Assembly: GCF_932294415.1 (NCBI RefSeq) | Contig: NC_065536.1 | Location: 8,182,474-8,246,473, forward strand | Length of the DNA: 64,000 nucleotides | DNA from: Quercus robur | Lineage: Eukaryota > Streptophyta > Magnoliopsida > Fagales > Fagaceae | Reading direction: 5' to 3' | Shown: one piece after another, positions 2,622 to 62,715 of the stretch | How positions within the stretch are numbered: position 1 is the first letter of the stretch | Layout of the letters: every line of letters begins with the position of its first letter | Notes under the pieces: model-generated | Told to the model about the DNA's origin: nothing | What the model saw: the letters and a program-made list of their open reading frames with translations, nothing else | The model's database searches: none | Program-made: the position numbers and the translations under genes

Positions 2622-4213
2622 TTCCAAAACCAGTTTCCAACACTCACCCACCTCAACAAGTCAACACGCAACAGCACTGTTCCTCTCTCTCTCTCTCTCT
2701 CTCTCTTTTCTTGCTTCCCAATGTAAGTTTTTAGTTTTTTAAGTGTTTATTGGCGGAAAGGAAGAACCGAGGGACTATAAAAAGGCCGAAAGGACCCACC
2801 CCAGGTCCCCATCCCTAACCTAACCCAACTGTGTTGGATGAGATAGATGAGGAATAGTCCATAGTTACTACCCTGACCAGGGAAAGAGGCGGCCCAAACT
2901 GTTTTTACTTTTATGGACCTAAAAATGGCTTATCTAGGTGTACAATAATTAATAAAAATCCTATCTACAAAAGATTGATAAAAAACAATAAAATGTAGTC
3001 AAAAGTCTAAGAACACAAAATGAACTTGTCCACGCAATTTAAACATGCGGCAAGTTGTGATTATCCTCTTTTCACACATTGACAAATATATAAATTGTGG
3101 AAAAATGTGTCATTGTGTGGATCAAAATTTTTGACATTTTTGTCAAAAACAAACTCAACTATGTTAAAAAATAAAGTTCATAACCTTGAAAGACCAAAAT
3201 AAGGAATTTGAGAAGAATGTTAGGAAACTGAAAAAAAATGTAAAAAAAACTAGTAAAAAATGTAGTTTATAGAGTATTTTCAAGAACATAACCAAACCCC
3301 TAAAAATATTTTCACTTGAAAAAACATTTTACATTCTGAAAAACATATTTACATAAAGCCAAACACATTTTACATTGAGCTAGACAGAGGGTAAAACAAC
3401 TTTGTCGGTAAACAAAAAGAACCGCAAATTAAAGAGAACTAATTCTTGGATGTCGGCCTCCTGATGTAGAGAATCTAATTAAAGGGGAAGAAAAGATCAA
3501 CCCAATTAAAAATAACAACAATCCACGTGTACGAACAAATTATCATAGGAAATATCCTCCTCACTTTTGAAAGACCAAATAAAAAAAAAAGAAAAGTGTT
3601 GTCAAATCAGAATCAGCACGTCGTGCCCTCATCACCATAAAATCCTAGTTCCCCCACTCATTAAAATACAATTAGTTATAGACTGGTAGATGAAGAACTC
3701 AAATCATTGATTGGGATGGCCACTCACTACTGAGAGTCTTCAACTTCACAAACAAACAGTCTTCTCTCTCTAACCAAAAAAAAAAATCAAAATGGATGAA
3801 TCGTTGTACGGTACGGAGAGGCCTACTGGCAATGGTCATACCCTCACCTCCATTGCCGTATGATTCTTGCTTTGGATGCAAGAGTTCGAATCTATCATTG
3901 GGTTGGTATTAGGAATTCATTTGGGAGGATTGTGGGCAGTTGCCAACTGAGACTTTGTGACAATTATTAGACCAAAGAGAGAAAAAATCAACAATGTTTT
4001 TTAAATGAATTTGAGAAGAAGCTGCTAAGTTAATTTCTTTAACATCTAATACCACCACAGGTAGAACCCAACATGTAGGGTTCCTTTTCACTCTAAATAA
4101 GAGATAGTAATCACTTATCCCAAAGACTACCATATAACAGAGAATACTAAAAAGTAAGAATAAAATTTGGTATAACAGACTTAATGAAATAATGATATGT
4201 AGACACATGATGG
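2622..4213. other. Upstream/intergenic stretch, no gene seen
   Basis: AT-rich DNA lies between the CCR-like gene and its broken copy, and presumably includes the promoter. A CT microsatellite at about 2682-2706 falls in the likely 5'UTR or promoter. Short open frames near 3699-3881 and 3909-4208 resemble no family I know. Around 3822-3893 a TGGCAATGG and a later GAGTTCGAATCT resemble Pol III A and B boxes, so a decayed SINE is possible there but weakly supported. Confidence 0.5.
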
Positions 4214-4635
4214 CTTAGGAAGGTAATATAATTATATTACTAAGGGCATCTTAGTAGATTTGTACTAATTCATGCAAAACTATTTATTAATTGGGGAAAA
4301 AGAAATCATAGATAGGTATTCTTGCCTCAGGATTTGGTACTGTGGTCGAAGGAACTGGAACTGGACTAGCAAGATGGAATACTCCAATGCTCCCTTCAAC
4401 TGCTGAACGTATGAAGTCATAATCCAGTAATTCTGCCTTGAATAGTCTCAAGTTTGTGGATGCGTTACTCAAATGAGCATTCTTCAGTCTTCACATCTCC
4501 TGCACACAATTTCCTAGAAGTCATCTTAAGAAGCCTTCAAAAAATGATTTAGCAGCAAATTAATTACAGTTCTCCTAGATAGATTAAAAAATTTTCGTTT
4601 GATACAAATTCATTCTAAAACTGAAAGTAGCAGCT

Positions 4636-13782: not shown

Positions 13783-16700
13783 CTAAGTAGCAACAATACA
13801 ATCAGAACAGATTCTATTACAAAACACCCCATTGAGGTCATCCTTAAAAACATCTAAAAGGTCCACAGGCGGACTATCAAAAGTAGAAAAATCAACATCT
13901 AGACAATAGCTTAATCTAGCAAGACTATCCGCACACCTATTCGCCTGCCGGAAGCAATGATGAATACAAACCTGCGGAATGCGCGATATCAAAAGTTTGC
14001 AATCATCCAACAGAGGCGATATGACATTATTCACATAAGAAGGATTATCCAAAGCATCCACAATAGCCTTGGCATCAAGTTCAACTTCAAGGGCATTAAT
14101 GTTAAGGTTGCGGCATAAAAGAAGACCCTCCCTTAAACCCCATAGCTCAGCGGCAAAGCTGCTGGTCATGCCAATACTCCTACTAAAACCCATAATCCAC
14201 CTACCTGCATCATCTCTAATCACCCCTCCACAACCTGCCATACCAGTGTTACCACAACAAGAGCCATCTGTGTTAAGCTTCCACCATCCTTGAACCGGCT
14301 TCTCCCACCTAATCCTCCTTAAAATTTTCCGAGTCATTAGCCTTGGAGAGGAAAGACAATGAAAAAATTCCACTGCTTGGTTTATAATCACCAAATCAAG
14401 CTTCGGATTCCTACTTTTACCATTGAAAACCGCATTGTTTCTACTCTTCCAGACATTCCACACAGCAAAAGGAAAAACAACATTCCAAGGAGGGTGGTTA
14501 GCACCTAAACTGTGCTTAAATTTACTATTTAACATCATCCAATCCTGAAGGTTGCTACTCCAAAAGGCTTGATTAGAAGGTGAAATCCCCAACTGGTTCC
14601 ACAGGCCTCTTAAAAGAGGGCAATCTCTCAAGGCATGTAAAATGCTTTCAACTCCTTCCTGGCATAAAGGGCAAGTAGTAGCATGACTAATACCTCTCCT
14701 CTCAAGGCAAACCTTAACTCCAATGCTATTATGGGCACACTTCCAAAGAAAAGTTCTAATCCTTGGAAGAGTATTCACTTTCCAAATCCAACGAGCTGGG
14801 AAAAGATCTATCCCTTCATCCCCCATGGCAATCCTATAAGCACTCTTCAAATCAAAGGTGCCTTTAGAAGATCCCGACCAAGCCAACTTATCAACACCTC
14901 TACTCAACAAAGTCACTGGGGTTACTTTAATCAACCTTCTAACCTCAATAGGAAGATCAAAAGGAATCTTCCCCCAATCCCAACCAGTGTCTAACATAAA
15001 GTCTTTCACTTCTAGCTAACTAGCCTCCCTCGTGATAGGACCCTGAATCAAGCCTCTAAGAGATCCTCCATTAGTCCAATTGTTTTGTCACACATTAAGC
15101 CCACTATCCCTACCAACCAACCATCTGCTACCCTTATTGAAAGTGTCCATACCTTTTTTCATCGCAGCCCAAATGTGAGAACAAGGAAGCCTATTAGCAT
15201 TGGTAGCAACTCTTCTTCTCGGATTACAATACTTCGTATTCAAAACTCTAGCCCAAGGGGCCTCCTTCTTAGTATGGAACCTCCAATTAAGCTTAGAAAG
15301 GAGAGCTATATTCTTCCCCTTTGCAGATTGCAGCCCAAGCCCCCCTTCCTCCTTAGACTTTATCACCTTATCCCAACCAACCCAATGAATCTTCTTGGTA
15401 GCCTCAAAAGAACCCCATAGGAAATTTCGATTCAATCTATCTAATCCATTCAAAATTCTATCAGGCAACAAGTTACATTGCATGACATATGAAGGAACAG
15501 CAGCTAAAGAGGCTTGAATGAGAACATTCCGCCCCGCCAGAGAAAGCATGTTAGCCTTCCAACCCGAAAGCTTTTGTTTAGCTCTATCAAGGATGAAGTT
15601 GTACTCCTGAGAAGAAGATCCAGGATGCTTGAGAGGAAAGCCAAGATACTTCCCCAAGAAAGCAGTGGAAGCAAAACCCAGAATGTCACAAAGAGATTCC
15701 CTTGTGTCACAGTCTACATTTGGGGAGAAATACACCCTCGACTTTGCTTCACTCACAGATTGCCCCGATAACTCACAAAAATCATCAAGAACATCTCTAA
15801 TGGCGGCACAATTAACCCAATCTGCCTTAGCAAAAAGGATGAGGTCATCCGCAAAGAAGAGATGAGAGAATTCAGGACCACTTTGAGAGGCTTTAACTAG
15901 ATGCCAAGTCTTCATATTGCACTTCTCTTCTATTAACTGACCAAGGAAATCCATGCAAATGATGAAAAGATACGGGGAGAGGGGGTCACCCTGCCTTATC
16001 CCTCTAGAAGGAAGAATTGGATCCAAGACTTCCCCATTAAACAAAATGGAGGTGGAGACCGTCGACACACAACTCATTATAACATCTATGAGCTATGTGG
16101 GAAGGTTAATACTAATAAGCATGCTCCGAATAAAACCCCACTCAAACTTGTCATAAGCCTTCTCCAAATCAATCTTTAAGGCCATGTACCCCGTCTTCCC
16201 TTTCTTCTTCCCAAGGGAATGGATTATCTCTTGGGCAATGATGACATTATCAATACCCTTTCTACCCGGGACAAAATCCGTCTGAAGGGGAGAAATAATC
16301 TTATCCAAAAAAGGTCTCAACCTTGCCACAATGATCTTGGTCACCACTTTATACACCGTATTACACAGGCTAATAGGTCTGTAATTACCTAAAGTCTCTG
16401 GACCTTGGATCTTAGGAATCAAAGCAATAAAAGTCTTATTCAGATGCTCAGGCACTTTCCCACTCCTAAAAACCTGCTTAACTTCCTCAATCATAAAGTC
16501 CCCCACAACTAGCCAAAATTTTTGGAAGAAGCCCGCATGAAGACCATCCGGACCCGGGGCTTTAAATGGTTTTAAAGCCCACAAGGCAGCCTTGATTTCT
16601 ATTTCAGTAACCTCTTCATTGATGCTCTCCCTCTCCCCATCTGATAGGCTGGCCTGACACTGGACAAAACTAGTCTCATCCCTTGAAACAGCCTCATGAG

Positions 16701-17913
16701 ATGTTGTGTATATCCCACTAAAGCCGCTTCTAATAAACTCTTTAATATCATTCTCCTCAAGGATCCACTCCCCCACTAAATTCTTAATAGCCATGATTTG
16801 ATTCCTTTTCCTCCTAACCAAGGTTGAGACATGGAAGAAAGCTATATTACGATCCCCTTGAACCAACCAATTAACCCGAGACTTCAAAGCCCATAACTCC
16901 TCTTCTTGATTGAGAACAAGATCAAGATCCCTAAGGAGATCCACTTCTAGCTTGAGAAGAGAACTAGAAGGTTTAAAAGCAATAGCCTTCTGAATCCCAT
17001 TGATTCTAGCCATCAAAATTTTCTTCCTTGTAAAAATATTCTCGAACTGATTTTTATTCCAATCCACAACATTCCTAGTGAAGCTCTCAACGGCCTCAAC
17101 AAGATTATCTGCACCTCCCCAAGCTTGAGAAACAATAGCAGGGAACGTAGGGTCAAGCAACCAGCACATTTGAAACCTAAACGGCATCTTCTTCCCCCTA
17201 CTTACACTTGGTTACATCTCTAACAGAACAGGGCAGTGATCAGAGTGGTATCTAGGAAGATGGGTGATTTTAGCATCCGGATAAAGCAAACACCATTGAG
17301 GGTTCACAAAGAACCTGTCTATTCTCTCCTGAATCAAGGCTTGAATTTCCCTTCTATTGGTCCAGGTATATTGAGGACCCGCAAAGCCGATGTCCATCAT
17401 ACTACATTTATCTAAACACTCCTTAAACAAAAGAGAGCTGTTCACACTAACCGCTCTACCACCAAATTTGTCATCATTAACCAAAGGTTCATTAAAATCC
17501 CCTGCTATAACTCAAGGCATATTATGAAGATCTGCTACATTCATAAGATTATTCCATAAAATATGTCTTTCAGCACACCTAGGACTAGCATACACAGCAG
17601 AAAAAAGCCAAATAACATTTGAACTGCATACCTTAACCGTAAAGTGAATTTCTTGTTCAGTACTGGCCAAATGGGCAACGTCAACTCTTTCAGAATTCCA
17701 CAGCACCCATATTCCACCAGCAAACCCAACTGCATCAGAGCGAATAACTCCATCAAAAGGGAGTCTCCTAGTGATTTCCCTAGCTCTATTAACCCCAACA
17801 CGCGTTTCCATTACCACCAAAATAGCCAGATTATACTTCTGCACCATCTCCCAAACACGCTTCTGAAAAGAGGGCTTTGAAGCACCTCTACAATTCCAAA
17901 TAATGCTATTCAT
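13783..17913 (-). pseudogene. LINE A ORF2: endonuclease, reverse transcriptase, zinc finger, RNase H
   Basis: Five open stretches on one frame make up an ORF2 of about 1,375 codons starting at the ATG 17911-17913 (MNSIIWNCRGA). In order: APE-type endonuclease (METR, AGDFNEP, SDHCPVLL), reverse transcriptase with the FADD catalytic motif (SHLFFADDLILF), a zf-RVT zinc finger (CPLCQEG), and RNase H with NTDG, AAELWG, ELDAK and the closing ADSLAR. The frame is broken by five stops: TGA at 17509-17511, TAA at 17212-17214, TAG at 16093-16095, TGA at 15088-15090, and a TAG just upstream of 15009. There are no frameshifts. It is inactive but well preserved. Confidence 0.92.
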
Positions 17914-17944
17914 AATGACAAATAAAGCTGGGACAAGACAAAAC

Positions 17945-19987
17945 TCAATGGTATGACCCATCATCACATCTTCCTTCCAACACCATCAAGTCCACACCAA
18001 GTGCTATACATCCCCCACTCTCATCCCTTAATGAGCCATGATCAGATCGAGCTACTTGAATACCCTCTCCAAGGCCGGTACAAACACCAGCACAACCCAA
18101 CATGCCGTCATTGCCGCCAGTCAGCTCTCTGTCCAAACCTTGAACTTCACTTTGTCCAAACCCATTATCCCAGTTCATACTCCTCGCCTCACAACCACTC
18201 CGATCACCCTGATTTTTCCCGGACCCGCCTCTTCGAACCAAACCCATCTCGGACTCGTCGACGGCAACAAGCTGAAGCTCTCCATCAGGCAACGGCACGT
18301 TGAGTTGCGCCATACCAATCTGCCTCAAGTCCGCCCTTCTCACCTCACAGTCACTCCTAACACCAAGTTTATCCCCGGCACCACCTCTTCGAAACAAACC
18401 CATCTCAGTCTCGTCAACGGCAGCGAACTGAAAATCCCTACCAGGCGACGGCGTATTGAAATGCACCATATCGATCTGCTTCAAGTCCGCCCCTGCAACG
18501 GCGACGACACCGACTTAGCTCGTCCTCTGCGTCGGCGAGCTGTCCCTAGAGGTTTCTTCCCCAGCAGCACCGACCAATCTCATGCTTCCAACCCTTGAAC
18601 GTGCCTCCATCTTCATAGCTTTGACTGAACCAGCTTTACGAGCTTTACCATTTTTTGGAATATTGACTTTCTTATTTGCATTGTGGGCCGACTCATCTTA
18701 GGCTTCCTTCCCAATTCTAAGAATGGCTTGCTCCAATTGGGCTTTCTCCAGAATCCTTAGAGGGGCCAGCTTCCTTTTTGCCTCCTTGTTAAGCCCGTTG
18801 GCATCCTCAGGCTTCTCAACATCAATCCAATTTCTCCTATTAGCTAGGAGAATACCGTTACTTCTCTGCTCCAAAGCATGACCGTGGCCAGGTAATGACC
18901 CACTACTTCCCTGGAATTTTGTCTCTTTCTTCCTACGTGCCACGACCACCCAAGGTCCATACGATCCCTCATGCACGTCCTCTTGCACGGCATCGTCCTT
19001 TCCATGTGGTCCCAATTTTTTTCCAGCACTGTCAGCATCATGCACAACATGTGTGCTTGCCCCTGTATCCCCTGCATCTTCCTTCTCCGCTGCCTCACAC
19101 GGCGGCACCGGCCTAATAACATACGGACAAGCCTCTCTTTTATGGCCCATTCTTCCACACTCAAAACATAAATTATGGATGCCCTCATAAGTAACAGTTT
19201 GCTGAAGTTTACCTATCATCACCGTAGTGATAAGCGGTTTATCTACATCAACTTGGATACACAGCCTTGCAAACTTACCTCTAGATTCAGTCACCGTGAA
19301 AGTATCAATCCTTAATACATTGCCAATAGCCTTCCCTATGTGCTGTAGAGCCTTAGCATTGTAGTATTCAATAGGTAACCCACTGAGTCTTATCCAAACT
19401 GCAATAGAAGACACCTTGGCTGATTCAGGCTTGAAATCTGGTTCCCATGGTCTAACCGATAGGAAGTGGTCTCCTAAGAACCAAGGACCTTTCTTCAACA
19501 CAATCTCAACATCCTCTTTCAATGACAACCTTATGAGGAAGAAGCCATGTTCAAGGTCTACAACATCCATACGCCCTGCTGGCTTCCACAAAGATAATAA
19601 TCTAGCTTGAAGAAAATTTAATCCAACAGCTCTACCGTAAACTTTCACAATCAAAGCTCTTGCCCAAGGTCTTCGGATCTCTTGTTTAAGCTCCTTCGAG
19701 AACTTCACAGCTACCATACCTTGCCTAAGAGTTTCCACTTCATCATCCGACTCGGGATCGTCATCCATGAACTCTTCAAAACAAAATGCCTGCATGTATG
19801 CACCAGGTATTTCACCCACAAGCTTATCTCTAAATGAAACATTTTGGCTGCCTTGGCCCCCAGCGAAGCTAGGAGATGGAGACCCCGAGCTTTGGCCTTC
19901 ACAAAAACCCGCATGATTCACATTTTTAACTTTTTTATTGCTTCGGGCAAGTTTCGCTTGTTCCTCGAGAGAGAGAGAGCGTTTCAC
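17945..19987 (-). pseudogene. LINE A ORF1: DUF4283-type RNA-binding protein with CCHC knuckle
   Basis: The main open part (19987-18698) holds the DUF4283-type domain (around GPWFLGDHFLSVRPW) and a zinc knuckle CFECGRMGHKREAC. In the same frame after a TAA (18698-18700), and a second TAA upstream of 18484, coding continues to a TGA at 17945-17947, so the ancestral ORF1 was about 680 codons. The C-terminal part contains two imperfect tandem repeats of about 52 residues marked by GLFRRGGAG and GLVRRGGSG. The likely start is now GTG (19985-19987); no in-frame ATG lies between it and an upstream stop, so the start codon may also be lost. Confidence 0.85.
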
Positions 19988-20102
19988 AAACTTGGCCGTA
20001 CTATAGTCTTTCTGTATATAGTACGTACAACATTGTATTGGCTAGATGAAATATCAAAAGAAGCGGGGTATTCCTCTGCAGAAAATAAAAAAATAAAAAA
20101 AT

Positions 20103-21160
20103 AGCTACAAACCAATGAGGGTTTAAACAATGAGGTTTTCAAATCTATTTTTCAACAACTTTGGCGCTGCTCAATTGTTCTAACTATTAAAGAAGTTAGG
20201 AATAATTCATTTCTGGCTATCTTTGTCAAGGAGGAGAACATGATTGAAGCTCAAGACAAAAGCCATTGGTCTTTTGATAAAATACTTATTTTATTGAAGC
20301 ATTTCAGCGGTGATCTCAGCTCTGGTAATGTCATTTTCCAACATTCTCCTTTCTGGATTCGAGTTTTTAACACTCCTATTAAAAGTATGAACAAAACTGT
20401 TGGTACTCGTATAGCTAATGAGATTAATACTCGTATATCTTATGGTTGATGCCCCTAAAAGTGGTCTAGTTTGAGGACCCTTTCTTCATATTTGGGTGGA
20501 TATTGATATCACAAAACTTTTGATAAGAGGAAAAATGGTTCATATTGAAGATGTAGAAGAAGGGTGGGTCTTTTTCAAATATGAAAGGCTACCTATCTTT
20601 TTTTATTGTTGTCCTATCTTCTGCTATTGTTGTGGTTGTGGTATACTCACTCATCAAGATCATGAATGTCAAAAAATTAGAAAAGGTTCTCTCATCGGAT
20701 GATGATGATTTTCAATTTGGTCCATGGATTTGTGCTATGGCTCCAAAATTTAGTCAGAAGAAGAGTAATTTTAGCCAATCCAAACCAAGAGAGGAAGACG
20801 ATGAAGAAATACATGCATCCAAAGATGAAAAAGGCGAAGCTGAGTCCTCTCAAATCTGCCATCAAATGACAATTCCTTCATTGGCCGGAAAATCCAATGA
20901 GATGGCAGTTAGGCATCTACTGGATGGCCCCACCAGAAATTATATTGAGCAGGAAAATTAGAAATCCTCTTATCCCTAACAAGTTTCCATTTTTTAGTGG
21001 GATATTATCCCACCCAAATCTAAAATATCTGAAAACCTTATCCCTTCTCCAAATTCAAAATCCAAATTCATTCGAATAAGCCCAACCCTTCATCTAAAAA
21101 AATTGTTTCAAATACAAAAGTTACAGCAACGGCAAAGGAAGATAAGTCCCAATGTTTGAG
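20103..21160 (+). pseudogene. Older LINE ORF1 fragment, second half
   Basis: After the target duplication the frame of 13606-13746 resumes with LNNEVFKSIFQQLW and runs through a DUF4283-like region (SHWSFDKILILLKHF, PFWIRVFN) to a stop at about 20447. Coding continues in other frames: DIDITKLLIRGKMVHIEDVE and FFKYERLP, a degraded CCHC knuckle (CYCCG..THQDHEC), then DDFQFGPWICAM. At least two frameshifts and several stops make it a relic. No ORF2 follows. It is unlike LINE A's ORF1 in detail, so it is a different family. Confidence 0.75.
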
Positions 21161-33780: not shown

Positions 33781-33995
33781 TAAGAGCATTTATATCAACC
33801 TCGGTGGGTTTTAGCCAAATTTAGTTTTAGAAACTTACTTTTATTGGTTGAACTAATTTACAATTCATAAACCATTATAAAAAATGCTAACGAATACCCT
33901 TAATGCATTGAGCAATCATTCTTCTTCTTCTTCTTTTGGTTTTATGAAAAAAAAAAAAAAAAAAACAACAACAACGACAACTACAACAACAATTA

Positions 33996-34123
33996 GGGTC
34001 TGTTTGGTGAGTGAGTTTAAACTCACATTTTCATATTTTAAACAACATTACATACTTTTTCACCCACACGTATTTCAAAAAACTACAAAGAACAATTCTC
34101 AAACTACTCTACCAAACACTCCC
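33996..34123. mobile_element. Short Tourist-like MITE, family Y
   Basis: The ends GGGTCTGTTTGGT and (inverted) GGGAGTGTTTGGT are flanked by TTA on both sides (33993-33995 and 34124-34126), as in PIF/Harbinger Tourist elements. A closely similar copy in the opposite orientation lies in an SF3A2 intron at 44165-44304. Confidence 0.8.
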
Positions 34124-36138: not shown

Positions 36139-36622
36139 GAAAAAAAATACTAAGAAACCTCCTAAACTTTGAGGGAGTGGCTATTACACCACTCGAACTT
36201 TATTTTTAGCCAATTTGCTCTATAAACTCCACACATTTGCTAAATTGAAGCATCCGTTAGTCTACGGTTAAAAGAGACTAACGTTGACTGACTAGCATGT
36301 GCTCTTCAAGTCTCAGCCAATCTTTTCAATTGCTTTCTTGATGACCTCCTCAAAGCCTCTGTTGCTTACTTTTCTTTTTCTTTTTTCATTTATTAAGTAA
36401 TCCTCTGTTAACACAAAATACAAAAATTGAATCTTAAGAAACCCATAAACTTCCTTCACATTTTGACGAAGAAACAAAGAATATGAGTGTCAAAGCCTTT
36501 CAACATGTACACTTTCTTGAATTCCACAAATAGCGGTGGAATGGAACCCACAGTACAGATGGCAAGATCAGCAGCAAACGACGGCCTCTCTCTCAGTTAC
36601 TCTCTCTGACCGTTTGAAGCCT

Positions 36623-36655
<33 letters not shown>

Positions 36656-36677
36656 AGAAACCAGCTGGTGCTTTATA

Positions 36678-38188
36678 TTAGATGGACAGAAAACTTCTGT
36701 CAATTATTACAAGATTTTTTGCATTACAATGGATGTCTTCAATCCAAATCTGAGGATCATAAGAGAACTTAGCTAAATGGGCAAGCTTGTCAGCTACAGC
36801 ATTACCACTGCGTTTTATATGGGAAAAGGAGGCAGCTCGCATCTGCGAAGCTAGAGCTCGAACCTCATCGGTAATGTGACCAAAGGAGGCCCAGCTTGAG
36901 TCGGCAGTAGTAAGGTGCTTGAACACCACCTCGCAATCACCTTCAAACACCGCATCTTGCATTCCAAGCTCGCCAGCCAAAGTGACTGCTCTTCTCCACG
37001 CCATTGCTTCCACATCCTCCACTGAAGGAGGCAGAGGGACCTGTTCAGTAAGCGCCGCCATCACCAAGCCTTCATGGTTTCGAATAACCACTCCCAGTCC
37101 AGCACGGTTGATGTCTGGAAACAGAGCGCCATCACAGTTTGCTTTGAACTGCTGAGGCAGCGGTGGAAGCCAATGAGCCGGGTTCGCTTCGGTCGGAATG
37201 TGCAGAGGATGATCGGTGGCTGCCTGGAATTCTTGTAGTCGCTCCAAAGCATCCCGATGAATTTGATTTGTTGGCAACGTTGGGCTGCCCACTCTAGAGG
37301 CATTGCGGTTAAACCAAATGCTCCACGCAATGAAAGCCACTGATTCAGCAAGGTTGTGACTGTTACGCAGCATTACTCCCTCAAATAGGTCCCTGAAATT
37401 GACAAAGCTTTCGGACAAGAAACTTCTACACGGCTCCACTTCCCACCATAATTCCTTTAGCATTTGGCAACCCCATAGTGCATGCACTGTATCCTCAATC
37501 TCACTGCCACACCTCTCACAAATTGCATTTGGAATTGGGATTCGCCTGCTTAAATTCAGCTTTGTCGGCAGGGAATTGTTGCAAGCCCTCCAAATGAAGT
37601 GCTGAATCTTGCTCGGAACCTTCAATGACCATACCTTCTGCCAGAAATTTTTGTGAGCATTCCTATTTGAAGGACCCGTTGCAGCTGACTGCACCGTGTC
37701 ATTAAGAAGCTGATAAGCAGATTTTGTTGAGTAGATGCCATTTTTTGTGGCAGCCCAAATCAGTTTATCTTCAACACCAAAGTGGCTTAGAGGCAGACTG
37801 AGGATGGTGTTTGCTTCATGAGGGAGGAATTCATCTCTAACCCGATCTTCCAGCCAACATGAGTTGTTTTCATCAATGAGAGCACAAACCCGAGTGTTAT
37901 TTGGGAAGTTTTTTTGTGGAGATATGATGCAGCTTGAATGTTGGTTTGGGAGCCATTTATCCTTCCGAATGATAACCTGTCTTCCATTGCCAATTCTCCA
38001 ACGAGCCCCCAAACTCACAACCCGCCTAGCCTTCATGATACTTTGCCAGGCATAGGACCCATTTAGCTTCACTTCCTCATCCATAATTGAACAATTAGGG
38101 AAGAATCTAGGTTTAAACACTTTGTAAAAGAGTGAATCAGTGTTGTGAAGGAGCCTCCATACTTGTTTTCCCAACAATGCTAGATTAA
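36678..38188 (-). pseudogene. LINE B ORF2, C-terminal part: zinc finger and RNase H
   Basis: An open frame of about 500 codons begins at the inversion breakpoint (NLALLGKQVWRLL) and ends at the TAA 36678-36680. It carries the zf-RVT finger (WSLKVPSKIQHFIWRAC, then CERCG and HALWGC) and an RNase H domain with NCDGAL, VEDVEAMAW, FEGDCE and VADKLA, so the acidic residues appear intact. It is separated from its own N-terminal half by the inversion and so cannot be made as one protein. Confidence 0.9.
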
Positions 38189-38189
38189 C

Positions 38190-39443
38190 TCAATACTTGG
38201 TGATCACATAATGCTCTTTACTTTTGATAACAAATCTGATGTGGATCGGGTCCTTGCAAGTGAACCATGGAGTTTTGACAAACACTTGGTTGTCATGCAA
38301 AGGTACGAGCATGAAACATCCTTTGAAGAACTTCCTTTTAACCGAGCTAGTTTTTGGGTCCAATTGCATGGTATTCCATTACGCTACATGACAGCAGAAG
38401 TAGCAGTGAAGATTAGTTCCGTCATTGGAGACGTGGCCCAACCAATTGATCCAAAGGAATTAGACGGGGGGAAATTTTTACGCCTCAAGATCTCCATCGA
38501 CCTAACTCTACCATTGTGTCGAGGGCGCCTTATTTCGTTGGACAATGGTAAACAAACTTGGGTAAGCTTCAAGTATGAACGACTCCCAAATTTGTGTTAT
38601 TGGTGTGGGCGTCTTACACACGATGACAAGGATTGTGAGAATTGGATTAATAGCGAGGGTACTCTCTGCCCTGAGGAACGTCAATTTGGCCCTACTCTAC
38701 GTGCCCCTGCCTTTGTGCAGTCAAGGAATACTAGTGTGACTGTACCAGGGTTCTATACAGCACGGAAGAAGACTGAAGCAACCACTCAAAACAATGTGAA
38801 AACCTCCCCTGCCAAGCACGGCAGCGATCAGATGCCTCACGGTGGACGGAGTGATTCAGGCAAGGACGATCCAATAACTCAGGGAAGTCATGTAACGGAC
38901 TGCAACGGAAAAAAAGCTACAATTAATGAACATGGTGAAACGTTACCTGAAGTGCCGCCAGGGTTTAAACGTGCTGTCAATTGGGTCTTAAACTCTACAG
39001 GTGCTAATAATAAGGGTGTAAATGCAGGAACCGTTTGTGATAATCAACATGAAGACCTGGAGCCAGACGTTAATAATTTTGATGTGGAGGCGTCAACAGG
39101 GGATAACGAAAAGGTTGAGCAGGGAAAGAACCCTAGCATGCCACGTGACTCACTTATCTCAAACACTATCAGGTTTAGTGAACCACGTGACACACAAGAG
39201 GCAGATAGGGTTGAAGCATCTCACACTCCATATCGCAAACTTCCGTCGTGGACCCGTAGAACTCGTCCAGGTTCTTCAAGCCACGGCCAAAATTCCAATC
39301 CCATCTCAGGCAGCAAAAGAGAAGCAACACCATCATACAGAGAGGATGAACCAGCTAGCAAGCGTCAACAGTACTATCAGAATGAAACAGAGGAACTATT
39401 CGAAGTGGTGGAGGCTGGCAGCCAGCCCCGCCAACCACGATGA
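38190..39443 (+). pseudogene. LINE B ORF1, 5'-truncated: DUF4283 domain and CCHC knuckle
   Basis: The frame enters from the breakpoint in mid-domain (MLFTFDNKSDVDRVLASEPW) and continues through FWVQLHGIPLRYM to a zinc knuckle CYWCGRLTHDDKDC and a long charged tail, ending at TGA 39441-39443. Compared with LINE A, roughly the first 160 residues are missing. The stop overlaps the ORF2 start as ATGA. Confidence 0.9.
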
Positions 39444-41905
39444 ACTGCCTCAGTTGGAACTGCCGTGGATTGGGCCAGCCACGTGCAGTTCTGGAACTCA
39501 CGGAGATGGTCAAAAAGTACTCTCCGGCCATCATTTTTCTCATGGAAACCAGATCAAAGGAAAGCTTCTTAAAAAAACTAGTTTCGAAATTACAGACAGA
39601 CAATGTTTTTATTGTTCCACGAACAAACACAGGAGGAGGTTTGGCGCTCTACTGGAAAAATAGCATTGACCTTAATGTAATGAGTTCCTCACCAACTTAT
39701 ATTGACGCAGTGGTTAACCCAGGAGTGGATGACGCCTGGCGGTTCACGGGTTTCTATGGAAATCCGGTAACAGCCAACCGGGAACACTCTTGGGCGCTAC
39801 TTAAACACCTATGTCTCAAGATGGATCTACCATGGATGTGCATAGGAGATTTCAACGAAATTGTTAAAGCGGAAGAAAAAATGGGAGGTGCCCTTAGGCG
39901 GGAAAGACAAATGAGGGAATTCCGGGAAGTGTTGGATTTTTGTGGCTTTCGTGACTTGGGCTTTGTGGGTTCACCATTCACTTGGTGCAATAACCGTCCT
40001 GATGAAGGGGTGACATGGATCCGGTTAGATAGGGGGGTGGCTACACCTTCGTGGTCCCAATTATTCCCAACAGTCCGAGTACATCACATAGCTGGTTCCT
40101 TATCAGATCATTGCCCATTATGGCTGAGTTCAGATGATGAGAACAAGCGGTTCTACAAGCGGAATAGACCATTTCGTTTTGAAGCGGCATGGTTGAAGGA
40201 TGAGGGGTGTGAAGGGGTAATCAAGCAGGCATGGCAGAAACAAAGTCCAGGAGAGCATATGGATAAGGTAATACAAAAAATTGAGGCATGCCGTACAAGC
40301 CTTCAGTGTTGGAGCAGATTGTCCTTTGGCAATATAAGACAGTTGCTGGAAAAAAAGAAGAAGCAGCTGGTTCAAGCAGAAGCTTTATCAATGAGAGGGG
40401 GCAGCCATGAACAGGTTCGGATTCTAAAAGGGGAAGTATATGATCTCATGGTGAAGGAAGATGTCATGTGGCACCAAAGGGCACGGGTTGAGTGGTTGCA
40501 AAGTGGAGACATGAATACCTCTTATTTTCACAGTAGAGCAACTCAACGAAATAAAAGAAATTTTATTTCAAAGCTGGTCTTGGAGGATAACTCAGTTGTT
40601 GAAGATGAAAAAATGATTGGAGAAGCAATGGTGAACTATTTCAGAAATATTTTCACTTCAACGTCCCCATCTGATTTTGAGCCAATTCTCCAAGGTATTG
40701 AGCCAAAGATAACCCCTGGTATGAATGCAGACTTGACCCGAGATTTCACAGCTGTAGAGGTGGAGAAAGCCTTGAAACAAATGAAACCACTGACAGCACC
40801 TGGACCCGATGGTATGTCTCCTATTTTTTACAAATCTTGTTGGAATTTTATAAGCCAAGATGTAATTGCTGCTGCCCTTTCTGTTCTTAATTCGGGTACA
40901 ATGCCAGAAAACTTAAACCACACCTACATAGCCCTCATTCCAAAGACCAAATCACCAGAACAAGCAAAAGATTTTAGACCAATAAGCCTTTGTAATGTTC
41001 TATACAAAATCATCTCCAAGACCATAGCAAACCGCCTAAAAACACTCCTACCCAAACTGGTTTCTGAGTCACAAAGTGCCTTCATGTCCAATAGATTGAT
41101 ATCTGACAATATCCTTGTTGCCTTTGAAACACTCCACCACATTAAAAATAAGCGGAAAGGAAAATCGGGTTTTATGGCTCTTAAGCTTGATATGAGCAAA
41201 GCATATGACCGAGTGGAATGGATCTTTTTAGAAAAACTTATGGAGAAATTGGGTTTTGGTAGCAGGTGGATTTCTCTTATAAGCTCTTGTATGCGTACTG
41301 TGTCATTTTCGGTATTGCTTAATGGTGAACCCCATGGTCACTTTACCCCTAATAGAGGACTCCGTCAAGGGGATCCCCTTTCCCCTTATTTGTTTCTCTT
41401 ATGTGCAGAAGGTTTACATTCTCTTATCCAGCAAGCTGAATGTTCCGGCTCACTTCGGGGTGTGTCTCTTTGTAGGGCTGGGCCAAAGGTGTCTCATCTC
41501 TTTTTTGCTGATGATAGCCTGCTATTTTGTAGAGCTAATCAGAAAGATAGCAGCACTATTCTGGAGATACTACAGCAATATGAGAAAGCATCGGGCCAAC
41601 AAATAAATAGAGAAAAAACCCAACTGTTTTTTAGCCCCAATACAGATCACGCCATGCAAGAGCACATCAAATCCAAGATAGGAGTATCGGCCATCCATCA
41701 TATTGAGTCATACCTTGGCTTACCAACTTTTGTTGGAAGAGGAAAAAAGAAAAGCTTCAGCTACATACGAGAACGGATTTGGCATAAGATTCAAGGATGG
41801 AAGGAAAAATTGTTGTCACAAGGGGGTCGGGAAGTCTTGATAAAGGCGGTCCTCCAAGCCATGCCATCCTACACCATGGGTTGTTTTTTGCTGCCCAAGT
41901 CTTTG
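39440..41905 (+). pseudogene. LINE B ORF2, N-terminal part: endonuclease and reverse transcriptase
   Basis: An uninterrupted 822-codon frame starts MNCLSWNCRGLG. The endonuclease shows METR, CIGDFNEI and LSDHCPLW. The reverse transcriptase shows APGPDGMSP, FRPISLCNVLYK, GLRQGDPLSPYLF and the catalytic SHLFFADDSLLF. LINE sequence stops at LLPKSL (41905), where the target duplication begins; the few residues after it are flank. Zinc finger and RNase H lie in the oppositely oriented piece, so the locus is not autonomous. Confidence 0.93.
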
Positions 41906-42149
41906 TTGAAGCCTAGTTTGTTTGTTTGTGTGTGTGTTTTTTTTTTAATCTGAGGTTTAGCCTTGGTAATTTATGTGCACGTGACTGTCATGTGAGTGAC
42001 GTTAGTCACTTTTAACAGTAGACTAACAGATGCCTCAGTTTGGCTAATGTGTGAAGTTTAGGAAGTAAATTAGCTAAAATTAAAGTTAGGGGTATAATAA
42101 CCACTACCTCAACTCAAGGGTCTCTTAGCATTTTTTCCAAAAAATACAC

Positions 42150-42825: not shown

Positions 42826-45800
42826 ATGGACAGGGAGTGGGGATCCAAGCCAGGTAGCGGAGGCGCCGCCTCCGCACAGAACGAAGCTATCGACCGCCGT
42901 GAGCGCCTCCGAAGGCTCGCCCTCGAGACCATCGATCTCGCCAAAGACCCTTATTTTATGCGCAACCATCTTGGCAGGCACACACTCTCTCTTTTTCTTT
43001 CTCTTTGTTTGTTGTGTTTCTGATTTTGGTTTCTGATTTTGATTTCTGGGGTTTTCGTTTTTTGTAGTTATGAGTGTAAACTTTGCTTGACGCTCCACAA
43101 CAATGAGGGGAATTACTTGGCTCACACGCAAGGAAAACGGCATCAAACTAATTTGGCCAAGAGAGCTGCTCGTGAAGCCAAGGAAGCTCCTGCTCAGCCT
43201 CAACCCCACAAGCGCAAAGTCTCCGTTCGCAAAACAGGCAAGCAAGCAAACCCTTTTTCCCCCATATTTTTTCACTATAATCTTGTTCCTGTCTCTGAGT
43301 CATTTTGTCGAACACTTAGTGTGCTAGTGTGAATTGTGTTAATATTGGTTGATAGTGTGAATAAGATCACATCTTTTGTGTGTTTGTAGGTGATTTTGTC
43401 GAAAGGGTAAAACTTAGGTGCAATAAAATAAAAATAGTGTTATCTTTTTCAAGGAAAATTAAATTCAAAACAACCAGGTGTTTGAATTCAATTGGGGAGC
43501 CTAATGTAGTGCACCTAAGGTACTGTAACTAAGTTTTATAGTTGTCAAAGTTATTCTGTGACTGTGAGACCCCGTTTGACTGCCTTTCGTAATTAGATTG
43601 AGATGGCAACTTAAAAGGACGTAGTCCTTGACCTTGGGTGGGCGGTATTGGGATAAGCTAACTTTTTGCGGTTCATGAAAATGAAGATTGTTTATTTGTT
43701 TGGGTTTTCTTATTTTATTTTAAATGGTAAGTAATTTGATCATTATGCATGATGTACCATTTTGATTCCTGAAGGAGTAGGATTTACATGACATGACATA
43801 CCTGAGGGTTTTATCTTGATTAGGAATAGCATTTTGGAGTTCTTGTTGTATTTATTTTGATAAGTGAAGGACTTAAAAATGTTACAATTGAAAAATAAAA
43901 GCTATAAAAAAAAAAAAAAAAAAAGGATTTTTATGTGACTAATTGGTTTTACTAAAAGCCATAAGGAGAAAGGGATATATGTCTTGTCTTGGCTTCACTT
44001 TTGGCAAGAGGAGGTGGTGTGTTAAGAATATTAGGGTTTAGTCTTACAAATAGCTCAAATGAAGAGGATTTGTAGGAAAGGAGCTTCAGCAAGTACTATT
44101 TGAATGACTTATTAGGATTAGAGTTAACATTGATTTATAAATTTATGGGTCCTTCCCAGAAACTGGGAGTGTTTGGTAGAGTAGTTTGAGTAATGTTGTA
44201 TGTAGTTTTTCGAAATACGTGTAGGTGAAAAAGTGTGTGGAAATGTGTGTAATGTTGTTTAAAATGTGAAAATGTGAGTTTGAGATAGAATACCAAACAG
44301 GCCCTAAAAATTTATTTGAGTGTTGGAGAAGTGTTAACGAGTATAGATGATAGTCTCTATGGGTTTCCTGTTGTGGATTTTAGTGGTTTGAATAGCTTAG
44401 TGGTAATGACATCTTGTGTCCAATGTCTGTTGTTCAAACCATACCTCCCCCTCCCTCACTATCTACCTATCAAAAAAACACTGGTATCTTTTTTATTTGT
44501 TGTGATAAGTAGATTTTACTGGTTTTACTGATGATATCCTAAATGTTTTGAATCATTGAAGTATTCCATTGTTAATTTTAACGATCTTATTTTTCTTAAT
44601 CCATAATTATTTCTCCATTCGGTGTCCTTGCAGTGAAAATTGGAAGGCCTGGGTATCGGGTAACAAAGCAGTTTGATTCAGAGACAAAACAGAGGTCTCT
44701 TCTCTTCCAGGTGATTGTTAGTTATTTTTCTCTCTTTCTCCAATATATTTTGGTTGTATAATACAAATCTCTTTGTTGCTGGTAATGGTGATTTTTGTTT
44801 ATGGATATGTTGAGCTGTGACAGTGAGACATTATATTAACTATCTTTTTCTGGCAATGTTGTTGTTTCAAGTAGATTGAATATCCTGAGATTGAAGACCT
44901 CTCAAAGCCTAGGCATAGGTTTATGTCATCTTATGAGCAGGTGACCTTTCTTAACTAGTTTCTTTCATAAGCATTTTCACATGCTGCTGTTGATTTATTT
45001 TCTATACAGTCACTGCACTTAAAATGATTGTAGCTGAATTTACACTTTTGTTTTTTCAAAGATGAGCTAATGTTCTAACAATTTTTTTATCACATCTCAA
45101 TGGATGCAGAGGGTCCAACCATTTGATAAAAGATACCAGTATCTTCTGTTTGCTGCTGAACCATATGAGATCATTGCTTTCAAGGTAAATCAAGCACATA
45201 ATTGTAAAAGCTTTTGATATGCGTCTTAATAGTTAGTTTCAGTAATCTTAGTGGTTGTGCTTGTGTATTTTCGTTTCAGGTTCCTAGCACAGAGATTGAC
45301 AAAACCCCTCCCAAGTTCTTCACACATTGGGATCCAGACTCAAAAATGTTCACGGTTAGTTTGCTTAATACTTTTCTCTATTGCTTCATATGTTTTCGGA
45401 TGTGCTCTGGCACAAAGACCAACTGTTTGAACATTCTACCTGGTCCATTCCTGGTGTGCTTTCAACCTAGTCTTGGTTGCTTATAAGTTAGTGGGCTAAA
45501 ATAGTAAAATTTGTGCACCCTAGAGAACTCATCTAAGTCACCTGGTGGATCAGCTCTTGTTCATAATTCCAATTATAGTTCTCTTTCTCTAAATTACTTT
45601 GGCACCAACTGATGCCACCAAGTAGACCAAAGCTAATATATCAACTGAATTGGTTGGACCATCTTCCAGTCTCACTGGTTTCGTTAAATTACTCTGATTT
45701 TTTTTTAATGAATTTCTTGTTTTGTCAATGGTGACTTTTAGCTGACCTGGTTATTTGTTGTGTATTAACTTGCAGTTGCAGTTATATTTTAAAACCAAGC

Positions 45801-46237
45801 CGCCAGAGGCAAGCAAGCCTCAACCTGCCCCTGCATCCAATGGCACAACAGCTCCTGGTGTCCCATCAAGGCCTTTGCCACCACCACCCCAAGCTCCACC
45901 ACCGCCGCCTCCTCCAACCCAAGGAGTACCACCTGGTGGACCTATTGGAAATCCTCCTAGAGCCCCTCCACCTTCAATACCTGCATCGTTCCCACCTCCG
46001 CCACCTCCTACAGCAAATGGCCCTAGGCCTATGCCCCCTGGTGGAACTCCACCTGTCCCTCCCCCACCCCCGGTTGGTAGTGGCACAATGGCAAATTTCA
46101 CTCCTGGTACTAGGCCTCCAATGCCTCCCCCACAAGGTTTTCCAAACCAACAGATGCAGGGCCAAGGGATTCGTCCATTGCCGCCACCTCCTAGCATGGG
46201 ACAACAGATCCCCAGGCCTCCTCCTCCTTCTCAGTAG
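42826..46237 (+). CDS. SF3A2: Splicing factor 3A subunit 2 (SF3a66/PRP11)
   Basis: Seven exons (42826-42977, 43068-43237, 44634-44710, 44875-44940, 45110-45184, 45280-45354, 45776-46237) join in phase to give 358 residues. Exon 1 reads MDREWGSKPGSGGAASAQNE. Exon 2 has the matrin-type C2H2 finger (YECKLCLTLHNNEGNYLAHT, then GKRH). Exons 3-6 carry the conserved core (KIGRPGYRVTKQFD, RVQPFDKRYQYLLFAAEPYE, HWDPDSKMF). Exon 7 is a proline/glycine-rich tail. SF3A2 is a subunit of SF3a in the U2 snRNP and helps branch-site recognition in the nucleus. Introns 1 and 2 both need GC donors (GGCAG|GCACAC and AACAG|GCAAGC). The gene otherwise looks intact. Confidence 0.94.
44165..44304. mobile_element. 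Family Y Tourist-like MITE in SF3A2 intron 2
   Basis: A 140-bp stretch from GGGAGTGTTTGGTAGAG to ACCAAACAGGCCC is the inverted relative of 33996-34123, sharing TGTAGTTTTT, GTAGGTGAAAAAGT and AATGTTGTTTAAAATG. TAA follows the right end, but the left neighbour is ACT, so the duplication is no longer clean. Confidence 0.7.
44385..44478 (+). mobile_element. tRNA-derived SINE in SF3A2 intron 2
   Basis: An A box TAGCTTAGTGG (44393-44403) and a B box TGTTCAAACC (44431-44440) are properly spaced, followed by a pyrimidine-rich body and the tail CTACCTATCAAAAAAA. This is the classic form of a short plant SINE. It cannot fold as a complete tRNA. Confidence 0.7.
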
Positions 46238-57869: not shown

Positions 57870-58303
57870 TGTAGGGAATTAACCTGAATTTCCAACCTGT
57901 GAGAAACAAAAAAAAAAAATAGAGAAAGCACATGCCAAAAAAAAACAATCACATGCATAAGACAATATTTACGTGGTTCGGCAATTTGCCTACGTTCACG
58001 GAGTTGTAGGGATTTCACTATTATTAGGAAAAAGTACAAAGTGCGGTTACAATTTTTCTTTCACTCAAGAAACACGACAACAACAAACCCTAAGCACATA
58101 ATTGCATTTTATACACAAAACGGGCCAAAAAAATTTTTCCCCAGGGCAACGCCCCCGGACCCCCAGGAGGCTTGTTCATAAGCGCTCTAGCTCCATGGAC
58201 TAAGTCTTAGAAAATCTTCTATTAAAAAACCACGCAATATTATTTGGGTCGGGTCAGATCGTCAAACCGATTCAAATAAAACTAGGCTCCACAAAACCCA
58301 ACA
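57870..58303 (-). repeat. Copia 3' LTR
   Basis: The sequence runs TGTAGGGAATTAACC to CCCAACA on the plus strand and matches 62252-62715 throughout. It lacks about 24 bp present in the other LTR near 62570-62600, and shows many point differences. Confidence 0.92.
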
Positions 58304-58449: not shown

Positions 58450-61400
58450 CCCTTAGTCAACATGTCTGCGGGGTTTTTAGATCCACAAATCTTTTTAAGT
58501 ATTACCAGCTTATCTTCAACAAGGTAATAAATAAAAGTGGTATTTTGTCTGTATATGTTTCGACTTTAAATAAAAAACCGAATTTTTGGCAAGAAAGATT
58601 GCACTCTAACTGTCACTGTGTAGAATGCGCATCTCCTGCTTCTTACCCAGTTCATCTAAGAAACCATGTAACCAAATCATCTCTTTTCTAGATTCAATTG
58701 CTACAACATACTCAGCTTCTGTAGTAGACAAAGTAACAATTTTTTGTAGATTTGAAGCCCATGATATAGCTATACCACCCAAAGTAAAAACAAACCCAGT
58801 AGTACTCTTTTTACTATCAATATCACCAGCAAAATCAGCATCTACATAACTGCCTCCTAATGCTGCTTTCTAGGCCTACTAATGAATCTGCTCACAACTC
58901 CCACTGCATGCGCAATGTCTGGCCTTGTACACACCATAGCATACATCAAGCTGCCAATAGTTGAGGCATAGAGCACCTTACTCATATGGTCCCTTTCTTC
59001 TTCTGTCTTCGGTGAGTGTTCTTTGCTTAGTTTGAAAAGACTACTCAAGAGTGTGCTAACTGGTTTAACTTCATTCATGTTGAACCTGCTGAGAACTTTT
59101 TTCACATACTTTGACTGTGAAAGCTTCAATGTACCATTAACCTTATTTCTAATGATTCTCATACCAAGGATTTGTTTTGCAGCTCCCAAATCCTTCATTG
59201 CAAACTGGTTGGACAATTATTTCTTCAAATTATTAATCTTCTCAATGCTAGACCCTGCAATAAGCATATCATCCATATACAACAGTAATATGATGTAAGA
59301 ATTGTCAAAAGACTTAACATAGCAATAGTGATCAGCTTCACATATCTTGAACCCAATTCTATGCATAAAACTGTCAAATTTCTTGTACCACTGTCTAGGA
59401 GTTTGTTTTAGGCCATACAAGCTCTTTCTCAGTTTGTAGACTAGATTCTCTTGTCCTTGAACAATGAACCCTTCTGGCTGAATCATGTAAAGGTCTTCCT
59501 CCAAGTCACCATGAAGGAATGCTGTCTTCACATCTAACTGCTCAAGATGTAAGTTTTTTGCAACTACCATTCCCAGTACCAGCCTGATTGTTGACATCTT
59601 CATAACTGGAGAAAATATCTCTATGTAGTCAATGCCCTCCTTTTGCTGGAACCCTTTAACAACTAATGTGGCCTTGTAACATTTGCTATCATCATGCTCA
59701 TTCTTTATTCTGTATACCCACTTGTTGTGCAAAGCCTTCTTTCTTACTGGCAATTCAGTTAGTTCTCATGTCTGATTCCCCAACAAGGAATCCATCTCTT
59801 CCTTCATGGTTAACTCCCACTTGCTTGAATTCTCATCTTGCAAGGCTTCATCATTACACTCTGGCTCACCACCATTAGTCAACAGGAGATAATTTAGAGC
59901 GGGTGAATAATGTTGTGGAGGTCTAATGTTCCTAGAAGATCTGTGGACTTCAGCTACAAGTGTACTTAAATCTACCTGTGAATTTATATTCTTCTTATCT
60001 TCTTTACCCATTTTCTAGACGGTACTTTCAGTCAATTCATCTTAGTTGACAAACTCAGATTTCTTTTGATCTATCTCTGTAACATCTGACACTACAGTTG
60101 ACCTGTCCTTATACATAACATGTTCATTAAATATCACATTTCTACTTCTAATGATTTTCTTGTTTTGTTCATCCCAAAACCTATAGCCAAATTTCTTATC
60201 ACCATAACCAATAAAAAAACATATTTTAGACTTTGCATCAAGTTTACTATGAGCATCAGAATCAATATGAACATAAGAAACACAACCAAAAACTTTTTAA
60301 TGTGAAAACTTTACCCCTTTACCACTCCAAACTTCCTCAGGAAGTCTAAACTCCATGGGAACTGATGGTCCTCGGTTTATCAGGTAAGATGTAGTGCTAA
60401 CAGCATCAGCCCAGAAAGTTTTTGGTAGTCCAGCATGCAACCTCATACTCCTAGCACGCTCATTGAGAGTTTTGTTTATGCGCTCAGCCACACCATTCTA
60501 CTGTGGTGTCCTAGGAATGATCTTCTCCATCCTAATTCCCTGTGTAGCACAATACTCACTGAACCCTTTATCTGTGTACTCTCCTCCATTATCTGACCTC
60601 AAACATTTTACTTTCAACCTGTTTCTGTCTCAACCATGACCTTCCACTTCTTAAAATTTTCAAATATATCAGATTTATTTTTTTAAAAATAAACTCATAC
60701 CTTTCTGCTTGAGTCATCAATAAAAGTGATGTAGTACCTTGGACTTCTAAGGGATGCAATCGGAGAAGGCCCCCACAAATTAGTGTGTACTAATTCCAAT
60801 TTTTTAGCTTTCGGTGTCCTGTCAGTTTTCAAGAAGCTCACATTTTTATGCTTTCCTAAGATGCAACTTTCACACATGTCAAAATCAATAGACTTCAATT
60901 CTGGTAGTTTTCCTTTTGACAATAGCATCTTCATCCCTTTCTCACTCATGTGACAAAGTCTGCGGTGCCATAGGCTTATGTCAGTACTAGCATCAGCAAC
61001 TACAATTGTGTCTCTTGGACTTGAGGTCATATATAGAGTACCGGTCTTCTTTCCACGAGCCAATACTCTGGCTCCCTTTGTAACCTTCCAAGTACCACCA
61101 ACAAATAGTATTGCATGCCCTTCATCATTAAGTTGTCCAACAGAAATCAGATTCCTTCTCAAGTCAGGAATATGTCAAACCTTCTCTAGTAACCAAACAG
61201 ATCCATTGGGTAACAATATCCGGATGTCTCCCATACCTACAATATCCAAGGCCGAACCATCAGCCAAATACACCTTATCAAAATCACCTGCAACATAATT
61301 CTGTATGATTTCTCGGTGTGGAGTGGTATGAAACGAAACTCTTGAGTCCAAAACCCAATCATCAAGTGGACTGTCTACTGCAAGAAGTAATGCATCCTGT
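58450..61400 (-). pseudogene. Copia pol relic: protease, integrase, reverse transcriptase, RNase H
   Basis: On the minus strand in order: a protease region with DSR in place of the catalytic DSG (about 61340-61350); a GAG-pre-integrase zinc part (LWHRRLCHMSEKGMKML, CESCILGKHK); an integrase core with RSDNGGEYTD and NGVAER; a reverse transcriptase with WVYRIKNEHD, QLDVKTAFLHGDLEEDLYM, YGLKQTPRQWY and the catalytic YMDD (LLLYMDDMLIAG); and RNase H with [17 protein letters not shown] and STTEAEY. At least ten stops interrupt the frame, nearly all explicable as C-to-T or G-to-A changes. It is non-functional. Confidence 0.9.
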
Positions 61401-62212
61401 ACCTCTTTTGTTACAACATTAGCGAAGTCATCTTCATTCTTCTTCTTAGGACTTTTGCATTGCCTCCTAAAGTGACTTGTTTTCCCACAATTCCAGCATT
61501 GTACTTGTTGACCTGATCTAGATTTACTTCTGTTCTGATTAGAATTTCTGAATTTTGATCTGCCTCGATTTGAATTTCTGTCATTACCTCTGCCTCTTGT
61601 CTCAAGGTTTAGGGCAAAACCAAATCCTGAGGTTTCATCCGCATCTCTTTTGCGAATCTCCTCAGTTAGAATTAAATCTCATATATCATTGTACTTGAGC
61701 TTTTTCTTTCCTGTAGAATTGCTTACTACCATTCTCATTACCTTATAACTGTTTGGCAAAGAAGCCAAAACGATCAATGCATGGATCTCATCATCAAAAT
61801 CAATTTCTACAGACGACAATTGATTTGTGATAGTGTTAAATTCGTTCAGATGTTGTGCTACTGATGCATTCTCTGCCATCTTCAAATTAAACAGTTTCTT
61901 CATCAGATGCACCTTGTTGTTTGCTAACGGCTTTTCATACATACCAGACAAAGCCTTCATCAGATTTGCTGTAGTCTTTTCCTTTACAACATTGTGTGCA
62001 ACAGACCTAGACAGAGTTAACCTAATAACTCCCAGAACCTGTTTGTCAAGAAGCGCCCATTCCTTAGCCTTCATAGTCTCATATTTTGTCCCCAAAAAAG
62101 GTAGATGCAATTTCCTCCCATAGAGATAATCTTCAATCTACATCTTCCAATACGCGAAGTCTGTGCCATCAAACTTTTCTATTCCAGACGCCTTTCCTGC
62201 TTCCTCTACCAT
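61401..62212 (-). pseudogene. Copia gag relic
   Basis: From the ATG at 62210-62212 the frame gives FDGTDFAYWKM, then a UBN2/retrotransposon gag region (LKMAENASVAQHLNEFN, LIVLASLPNSYK), an Arg/Asn/Ser-rich stretch and a CCHC knuckle (CWNCGKTSHFRRQC). Stops follow WKM and follow NDI (61679-61681). Confidence 0.85.
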
Positions 62213-62251: not shown

Positions 62252-62715
62252 TGTAGGGAATTAACCCGAATTCCCAACCTGTGAGAAACAAAAAAAAAAA
62301 AAAAAAATAGAGAAAACACACACCAAAGAAAACCATCACACGCATAAGACAATATTTACGTGGTTCGGCAATTTGCCTACGTCCACGAAGGTGCAGGGAT
62401 TTCACTATTATCAGGGAAAAGTACAAAGTGCAGCTACAATTTTTCTTTCACTCAAGAAACACGACAACAACAAACCCTAATCACACAATTGCATTTTATA
62501 CACAAAACGGGCCAAAATTTTTTTTCCCGGGGGCAATGGCCCCGAACCCCCAAAAGGCTTGTCCATGAGCACTTCTGCTTGGGCCTACCGACCCAAGCTT
62601 TTGCTCCATGGACTAAGCCTCAAAAAATCTCCCATGAAAAACCACGCAACATTATTTGAATCGGGTCTGGTCATCAAACCGGTTCAAACAAAATTAAGCT
62701 CCACAAAGCCCAACA
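62252..62715 (-). repeat. Copia 5' LTR
   Basis: On the minus strand it starts TGTTGGGCTTTGTGG and ends TTCCCTACA. Its size and dinucleotide ends fit copia LTRs, and it is followed directly by the primer-binding site. Confidence 0.92.

Follow-up and report, generated by a model that had tools for sequence, protein, structure and literature searches.

Within the 64,000-nt stretch of DNA analysed here (the window; C3:8182474-8246473 in its own assembly) lies an L1-like insertion of 5,278 nt, a long interspersed nuclear element (LINE) bounded by two perfect 14-bp target site duplications. The two exact copies of the 14-mer TTGAAGCCTAGTTT are at 36614-36627, on the 3' or poly(A) side of the element, and at 41906-41919; they are the only exact copies in the window, and a search allowing up to two mismatches added a single match, with two. 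Adjoining the first copy is a poly(A) tail of 27 nt on the minus strand (36628-36654, T on the plus strand), which is the portion past the duplication of a T run extending over 36625-36654. Next comes a non-inverted 3' segment of 1,534 nt on the minus strand (36655-38188), containing the end of open reading frame (ORF) 2 with zf-RVT and RNase H domains. The ORF2 stop is at 36678-36680 (minus strand) and is followed by a 3' untranslated region of 23 nt. The remainder, apart from a 7-nt filler (38189-38195; CTCAATA on the plus strand) with no counterpart at this place in relatives, is an inverted 5' segment of 3,710 nt on the plus strand (38196-41905). This comprises a 5'-truncated ORF1 from codon 68 onwards (38196-39443; stop TGA at 39441-39443) and the 5' part of ORF2 with an APE-type endonuclease and a reverse transcriptase (RT) (39440-41905; ATG at 39440-39442). 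The duplication copy at 41906-41919, on the side of the proposed second primer, adjoins an internal position of ORF2. One target duplication encloses two oppositely oriented segments of a single element: the 3' segment is in sense, with its poly(A) adjoining the duplication, and the inner end of the inverted 5' segment is at the other duplication copy. The perfect 14-bp duplication, the 27-base poly(A) next to the minus-strand ORF2 part and the lack of stops in all three reading-frame pieces agree with the original prediction for this DNA; the minus-strand piece is an open frame of 503 codons (38189..36678).

The minus-strand segment matched zf-RVT (E 2e-15) and the RNase H-like domain RVT_3 (E 7.1e-22), and the plus-strand segment matched an endonuclease (E 3e-12), RT (E 2.5e-38) and, in ORF1, DUF4283 (cut at its 5' end) and zf-CCHC_4. 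When the endonuclease-RT part was compared with solved sequences, the top match was an RNA-directed DNA polymerase chain (8c8j_A, E 2.1e-39), followed by four LINE-1 ORF2 protein sequences (best 8uw3_A; E 4.9e-39 to 1.3e-38), which we take to be human. Of the remaining five among the ten matches, three were R2 or R2Tg retrotransposon proteins and two were reverse transcriptase-like proteins. The insertion has the APE-type endonuclease, non-LTR (long terminal repeat) RT, ORF1 zinc knuckle and poly(A) end of plant L1-clade elements. A C-terminal RNase H domain occurs in part of the plant L1s; here, four acidic motifs of the kind were found in it. In its encoded parts (ORF1 with DUF4283 and CCHC knuckle; ORF2 with endonuclease, RT, zf-RVT and RNase H; poly(A) end) we found no difference from plant L1-clade LINEs, and it is set apart from its own relatives by the 5' inversion. 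Plant L1-clade LINEs include the types named Cin4, ATLN and LIb, and the insertion is set beside these by name only. Judged from the plant-type LINE domains and the gene content, the host is probably a plant. The start of ORF2 overlaps the stop of ORF1 in ATGA at 39440-39443 (plus strand), an arrangement that hints at termination-reinitiation as a possible way of translating ORF2 in this family.

Family copies were sought in the window's own assembly (785.7 Mb, 42 contigs) using a 401-nt query from the 3' end. Of 48 first-look candidates 40 were scored, yielding 40 matches; copies without the 3' end would escape this search. At least seven copies, the window copy included, had 90% identity or more. 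We compared the six others and one 73% relative together with their flanks. Identity to the window copy in the 5' and 3' segments, respectively, was 99.3 and 98.8% for L031, 99.2 (1,864 nt only) and 98.3% for L032, 96.0 and 96.2% for L033, 95.3 and 94.8% for L034, and 92.1 (1,019 nt only) and 88.8% for L035. L037 is a 3' fragment (521 nt, 98.1%), with no match to the 5' segment in its 10 kb. The L033 element is 5,791 nt long including its A tail and lies within an 18-bp duplication; L034 and the 5'-truncated L032 have duplications of 14 and 12 bp.

Among the seven family copies found, only the window copy is inverted. The two segments run colinearly in L031-L035, with 139 nt between them, and homology to the 3' segment begins exactly at 38188. 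We also counted loci at which the 3' piece and the RT piece each had a match and the two starts were separated by less than 6 kb. The count drew on two lists limited to the best candidates, one used for 40 of its 44 matches (the last four, short ones excluded) and the other for all of its 41. There were 19 such loci, 18 of them colinear and one, the window insertion, inverted. This count of inversions is a floor, as it sees only breakpoints between the two query pieces. For human L1, passages of PMC2912911 put the proportion of inverted copies at ~10%.

Alignment to the family members located both joints and the deletion between the segments. Relative to L033, the window copy spans element bases 390-4099 (4100 if the T common with the duplication is counted) and resumes at 4239 on the opposite strand. 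The original prediction had 'ORF1 plus most of ORF2' in the inverted part; ORF1 and the ORF2 endonuclease and RT do lie on the plus strand, but ORF1 is not whole, as the 5' truncation of 389 nt relative to L033 includes 67 of its codons if the first in-frame ATG of L033 is taken as the start. The predicted breakpoint near 38188-38192 was right in location, but the joint, 38188 / CTCAATA / 38196, has seven extra bases that match neither side in relatives. The ORF2 loss at the inversion is 139 nt against each of L031-L035 (~89-99% identical, uninverted), and the gap is 138 nt against the distant L036. The predicted loss of ~47 codons had been read from another LINE in the window, LINE A (13783-20041, minus strand), whose coordinates indeed give 141 nt or 47 codons, very close to the value from the family copies. 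LINE A has a similar domain order, but differs from the insertion by its protein identity of 33% (endonuclease-RT) and 22% (C-terminal part) and by several stops. It is a different and more decayed family and too distant as a yardstick for the loss, for which the copies from the same genome were used instead.

We conclude that the insertion arose, with a probability of about 0.94, by twin priming of the RNA of a low-copy plant L1-like LINE, as the original prediction proposed. In its favour are the way in which the segments are ordered and oriented, a duplication that encloses the whole composite, a poly(A) where one is expected, the loss of sequence at the 5' end and internally, and the presence of uninverted relatives in the same genome. 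The colinearity of the 18 other loci, the target duplications of L032, L033 and L034 and the matches of ORF2 to solved LINE-1 ORF2 protein sequences also count for it. Weak support for priming at the second nick comes from the final six bases of the second primer, which agree with the RNA at four positions, the terminal base among them (chance 0.038). In a first step, a nick made by the element endonuclease in the plus strand, at CCTAGTTT^G, would free a TTT end that primes on the poly(A) tail. The RT would then copy the 3' end of the RNA as far as the base at 38188 and halt. After nicking of the opposite strand 14 bp away, its 3' end (..GGCTTCAA) would prime at an internal point of the same RNA that directly follows the ORF2 codons LLPKSL, and the RT would proceed toward the 5' end and halt 389 nt before the start of the relative L033. 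The stretch of 139 nt that separates the second priming point on the RNA from where the first cDNA ends would be left uncopied. Finally, the cDNA ends would be joined with seven extra bases and without microhomology, as in end joining. The position of the uncopied 139 nt, just upstream of the point where the first cDNA stops, fits a model in which only RNA that has not yet been copied is free for priming.

The inversion joint, with its filler and lack of microhomology as in end joining, would also suit an ordinary 5'-truncated insertion that was inverted later by a recombination or repair event. This would, however, require that one breakpoint hit the boundary between element and duplication exactly and the other fall within the element with the loss of 139 nt, a coincidence of features that are expected by default under twin priming. 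We therefore consider a later inversion highly improbable. The use of one RNA can also be questioned. Dual priming, in which each nick is primed on a separate RNA molecule from the family, has been put forward in passages of PMC2837659 for inserts of similar anatomy, and the two segments differ in their distance to the nearest copy (0.73% versus 1.24%). The nearest copy of both segments is nevertheless L031, and one RNA is enough to account for them; we regard two templates as quite unlikely.

Under twin priming, the site before insertion would read GACCGT-TTGAAGCCTAGTTT-GTTTGTTTG, with a single 14-mer. A search of the same assembly with the joined flanks gave 13 matches, namely the two flanks of the site itself and 11 short matches elsewhere; none of them crossed the joint, and no empty allele was seen. 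The same search bears on whether the sequence was wrongly joined or inverted during assembly near 38190, a concern where the evidence is a single assembly. The flanks matched at full length at the insertion site, and the 11 other matches were short and ended short of the joint. Moreover, a 14-bp duplication placed exactly round the composite, together with the 5' truncation and the loss of 139 nt, is not what an artefact would produce, and we give this explanation next to no credence.

Several observations weigh against twin priming. The second-primer joint shows only 1 bp of continuous microhomology; at the inversion joint there is none, and filler takes its place. According to passages of PMC2912911, the 5' joint carries 2-5 bp in ~70% of 5'-inverted L1 insertions in human and chimpanzee and none in 28 of 605. 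The agreement of the second primer with the RNA at four of six positions, noted above, is weak. No convincing exact duplication was detected beside L031, L035 or L037 (three of the six other copies). Neither an intact source copy among the seven copies nor an empty allele in the same assembly was seen, and the evidence comes from one assembly. As to the origin of the filler, the window copy's own segments contain TATTGAG or its complement twice (reached by 216 of 1000 shuffles), and the L033 element contains it four times (reached by 18 of 1000 shuffles). The filler may have been copied from another part of the RNA, though these counts decide the matter neither way.

L031 (G000:C2:97499300-97509299) is the nearest relative of the window copy, yet has no detected adjoining target duplication. 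The two differ at 27 of 3,710 sites in the 5' segment and 19 of 1,534 in the 3' segment. Polarized by the outgroups L033 and L034, these differences comprise 27 changes private to the window copy, 16 private to L031 and three that could not be placed; the tests that follow rely on these few changes and one parsimony rule. The private changes of the window copy comprise 14 synonymous and 13 replacement changes and no stop (24.7% synonymous expected without selection, p 0.0026), and those of L031 six synonymous and nine replacement changes and one stop (p 0.25). C-to-T or G-to-A changes account for 8 of 27 in the window copy and 13 of 16 in L031 (Fisher p 0.0016), the latter as might be expected from methylated cytosines. 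The excess of synonymous changes and the low number of C-to-T type changes in the window copy suggest that much of its private divergence arose before insertion, in a selected, replicating lineage. The private divergence of 0.51% is a ceiling for the age of the insertion, which may be nearer to ~0.15% if only the eight deamination-type changes postdate it; L031 looks either older or more methylated than the window copy. The predicted recent event is borne out by these values. The split of private changes is stronger evidence on age than the lack of stops, a weak indicator, as at 1% divergence 13% of such frames gain no substitution stop.

Selection on the lineage suggests that the family was active until shortly before the insertion. 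The earlier suggestion that it may still be active is supported to that extent only, since both ORFs are whole in none of the seven copies found. In the window copy, ORF2 is split by the inversion and ORF1 is 5'-truncated; L031 lacks the first 218 nt of the L033 element and its ORF1 is interrupted; ORF2 is interrupted in both L033 and L034; and L032, L035 and L037 are 5'-truncated. The source copy therefore has been lost, was not assembled, was missed by the search or is in another individual.

In mammals, twin priming is the standard and accepted explanation for inverted L1 copies. Human L1 ORF2p is not known to have an RNase H domain. The window insertion differs from mammalian twin-primed L1 in its (probable) plant host, its encoded RNase H domain, the filler in place of microhomology at the inversion joint and the 1 bp at the other joint. 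It shares with mammalian 5'-inverted L1, as described in passages of PMC2837659 and PMC2912911, the layout of two segments with the 5' one inverted, the single target duplication and the internal deletion. Its 14-bp duplication is within the range of 10-17 bp given for 17 inverted inserts from a HeLa assay cited in a passage of PMC2912911. Searches of the incomplete open-access literature, covering mostly titles and abstracts, gave no case of twin priming in plants, and we claim no priority. The main text of PMC4838847, on L1-like retrocopies in dicots, contains no word beginning with 'inver', and three terms, one of them ill-suited, retrieved nothing on plant twin priming from PMC12312487.

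Taken together, we propose, at somewhat less than even odds for the whole, that an RNase H-bearing plant L1 makes twin-primed 5'-inverted insertions by filler end joining rather than annealing, that its lineage was recently active and that the insertion, possibly polymorphic, lies ~0.9 kb upstream of a gene similar to SF3A2. The insertion would be a base-exact plant case in which the second-strand nick primed on element RNA of an L1 with its own RNase H. Low copy number and uninverted sisters make the family a clean reference for the joining of LINE cDNA ends in plant cells. The mechanism is already known; this is a well-resolved example that leaves the overall picture unchanged.

The neighbouring gene was recognized from an exon at 43024-43329 (plus strand) that matches splicing factor 3A subunit 2 (6qx9_A2, E 1.3e-27). 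The candidate SF3A2-like gene (42826-46234, plus strand) was assigned by eye from translations, with a putative start at 42826 and proline-rich stretches up to 46234. If the gene assignment is right, the insertion ends ~0.9 kb upstream of its start codon. Inverted repeat arms at 33993-34123 and 44165-44307 (81-91% identity, ~10 kb apart) flank the insertion but seem to belong to another dispersed repeat, of which they would be copies, rather than to the insertion itself. An ORF1-like fragment at 20267-20675 (plus strand; 28-40% identical) lies just upstream of ORF1 of LINE A in the opposite orientation. Degraded retrotransposon pieces at 58609-62137 (minus strand), presumably copia-like, include a GAG-pre-integrase domain (60698-61174, E 2e-21). 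They are bracketed by direct repeats at 57938-58186 and 62325-62573 (90%), which may be the LTR remnants of this degraded retrotransposon.

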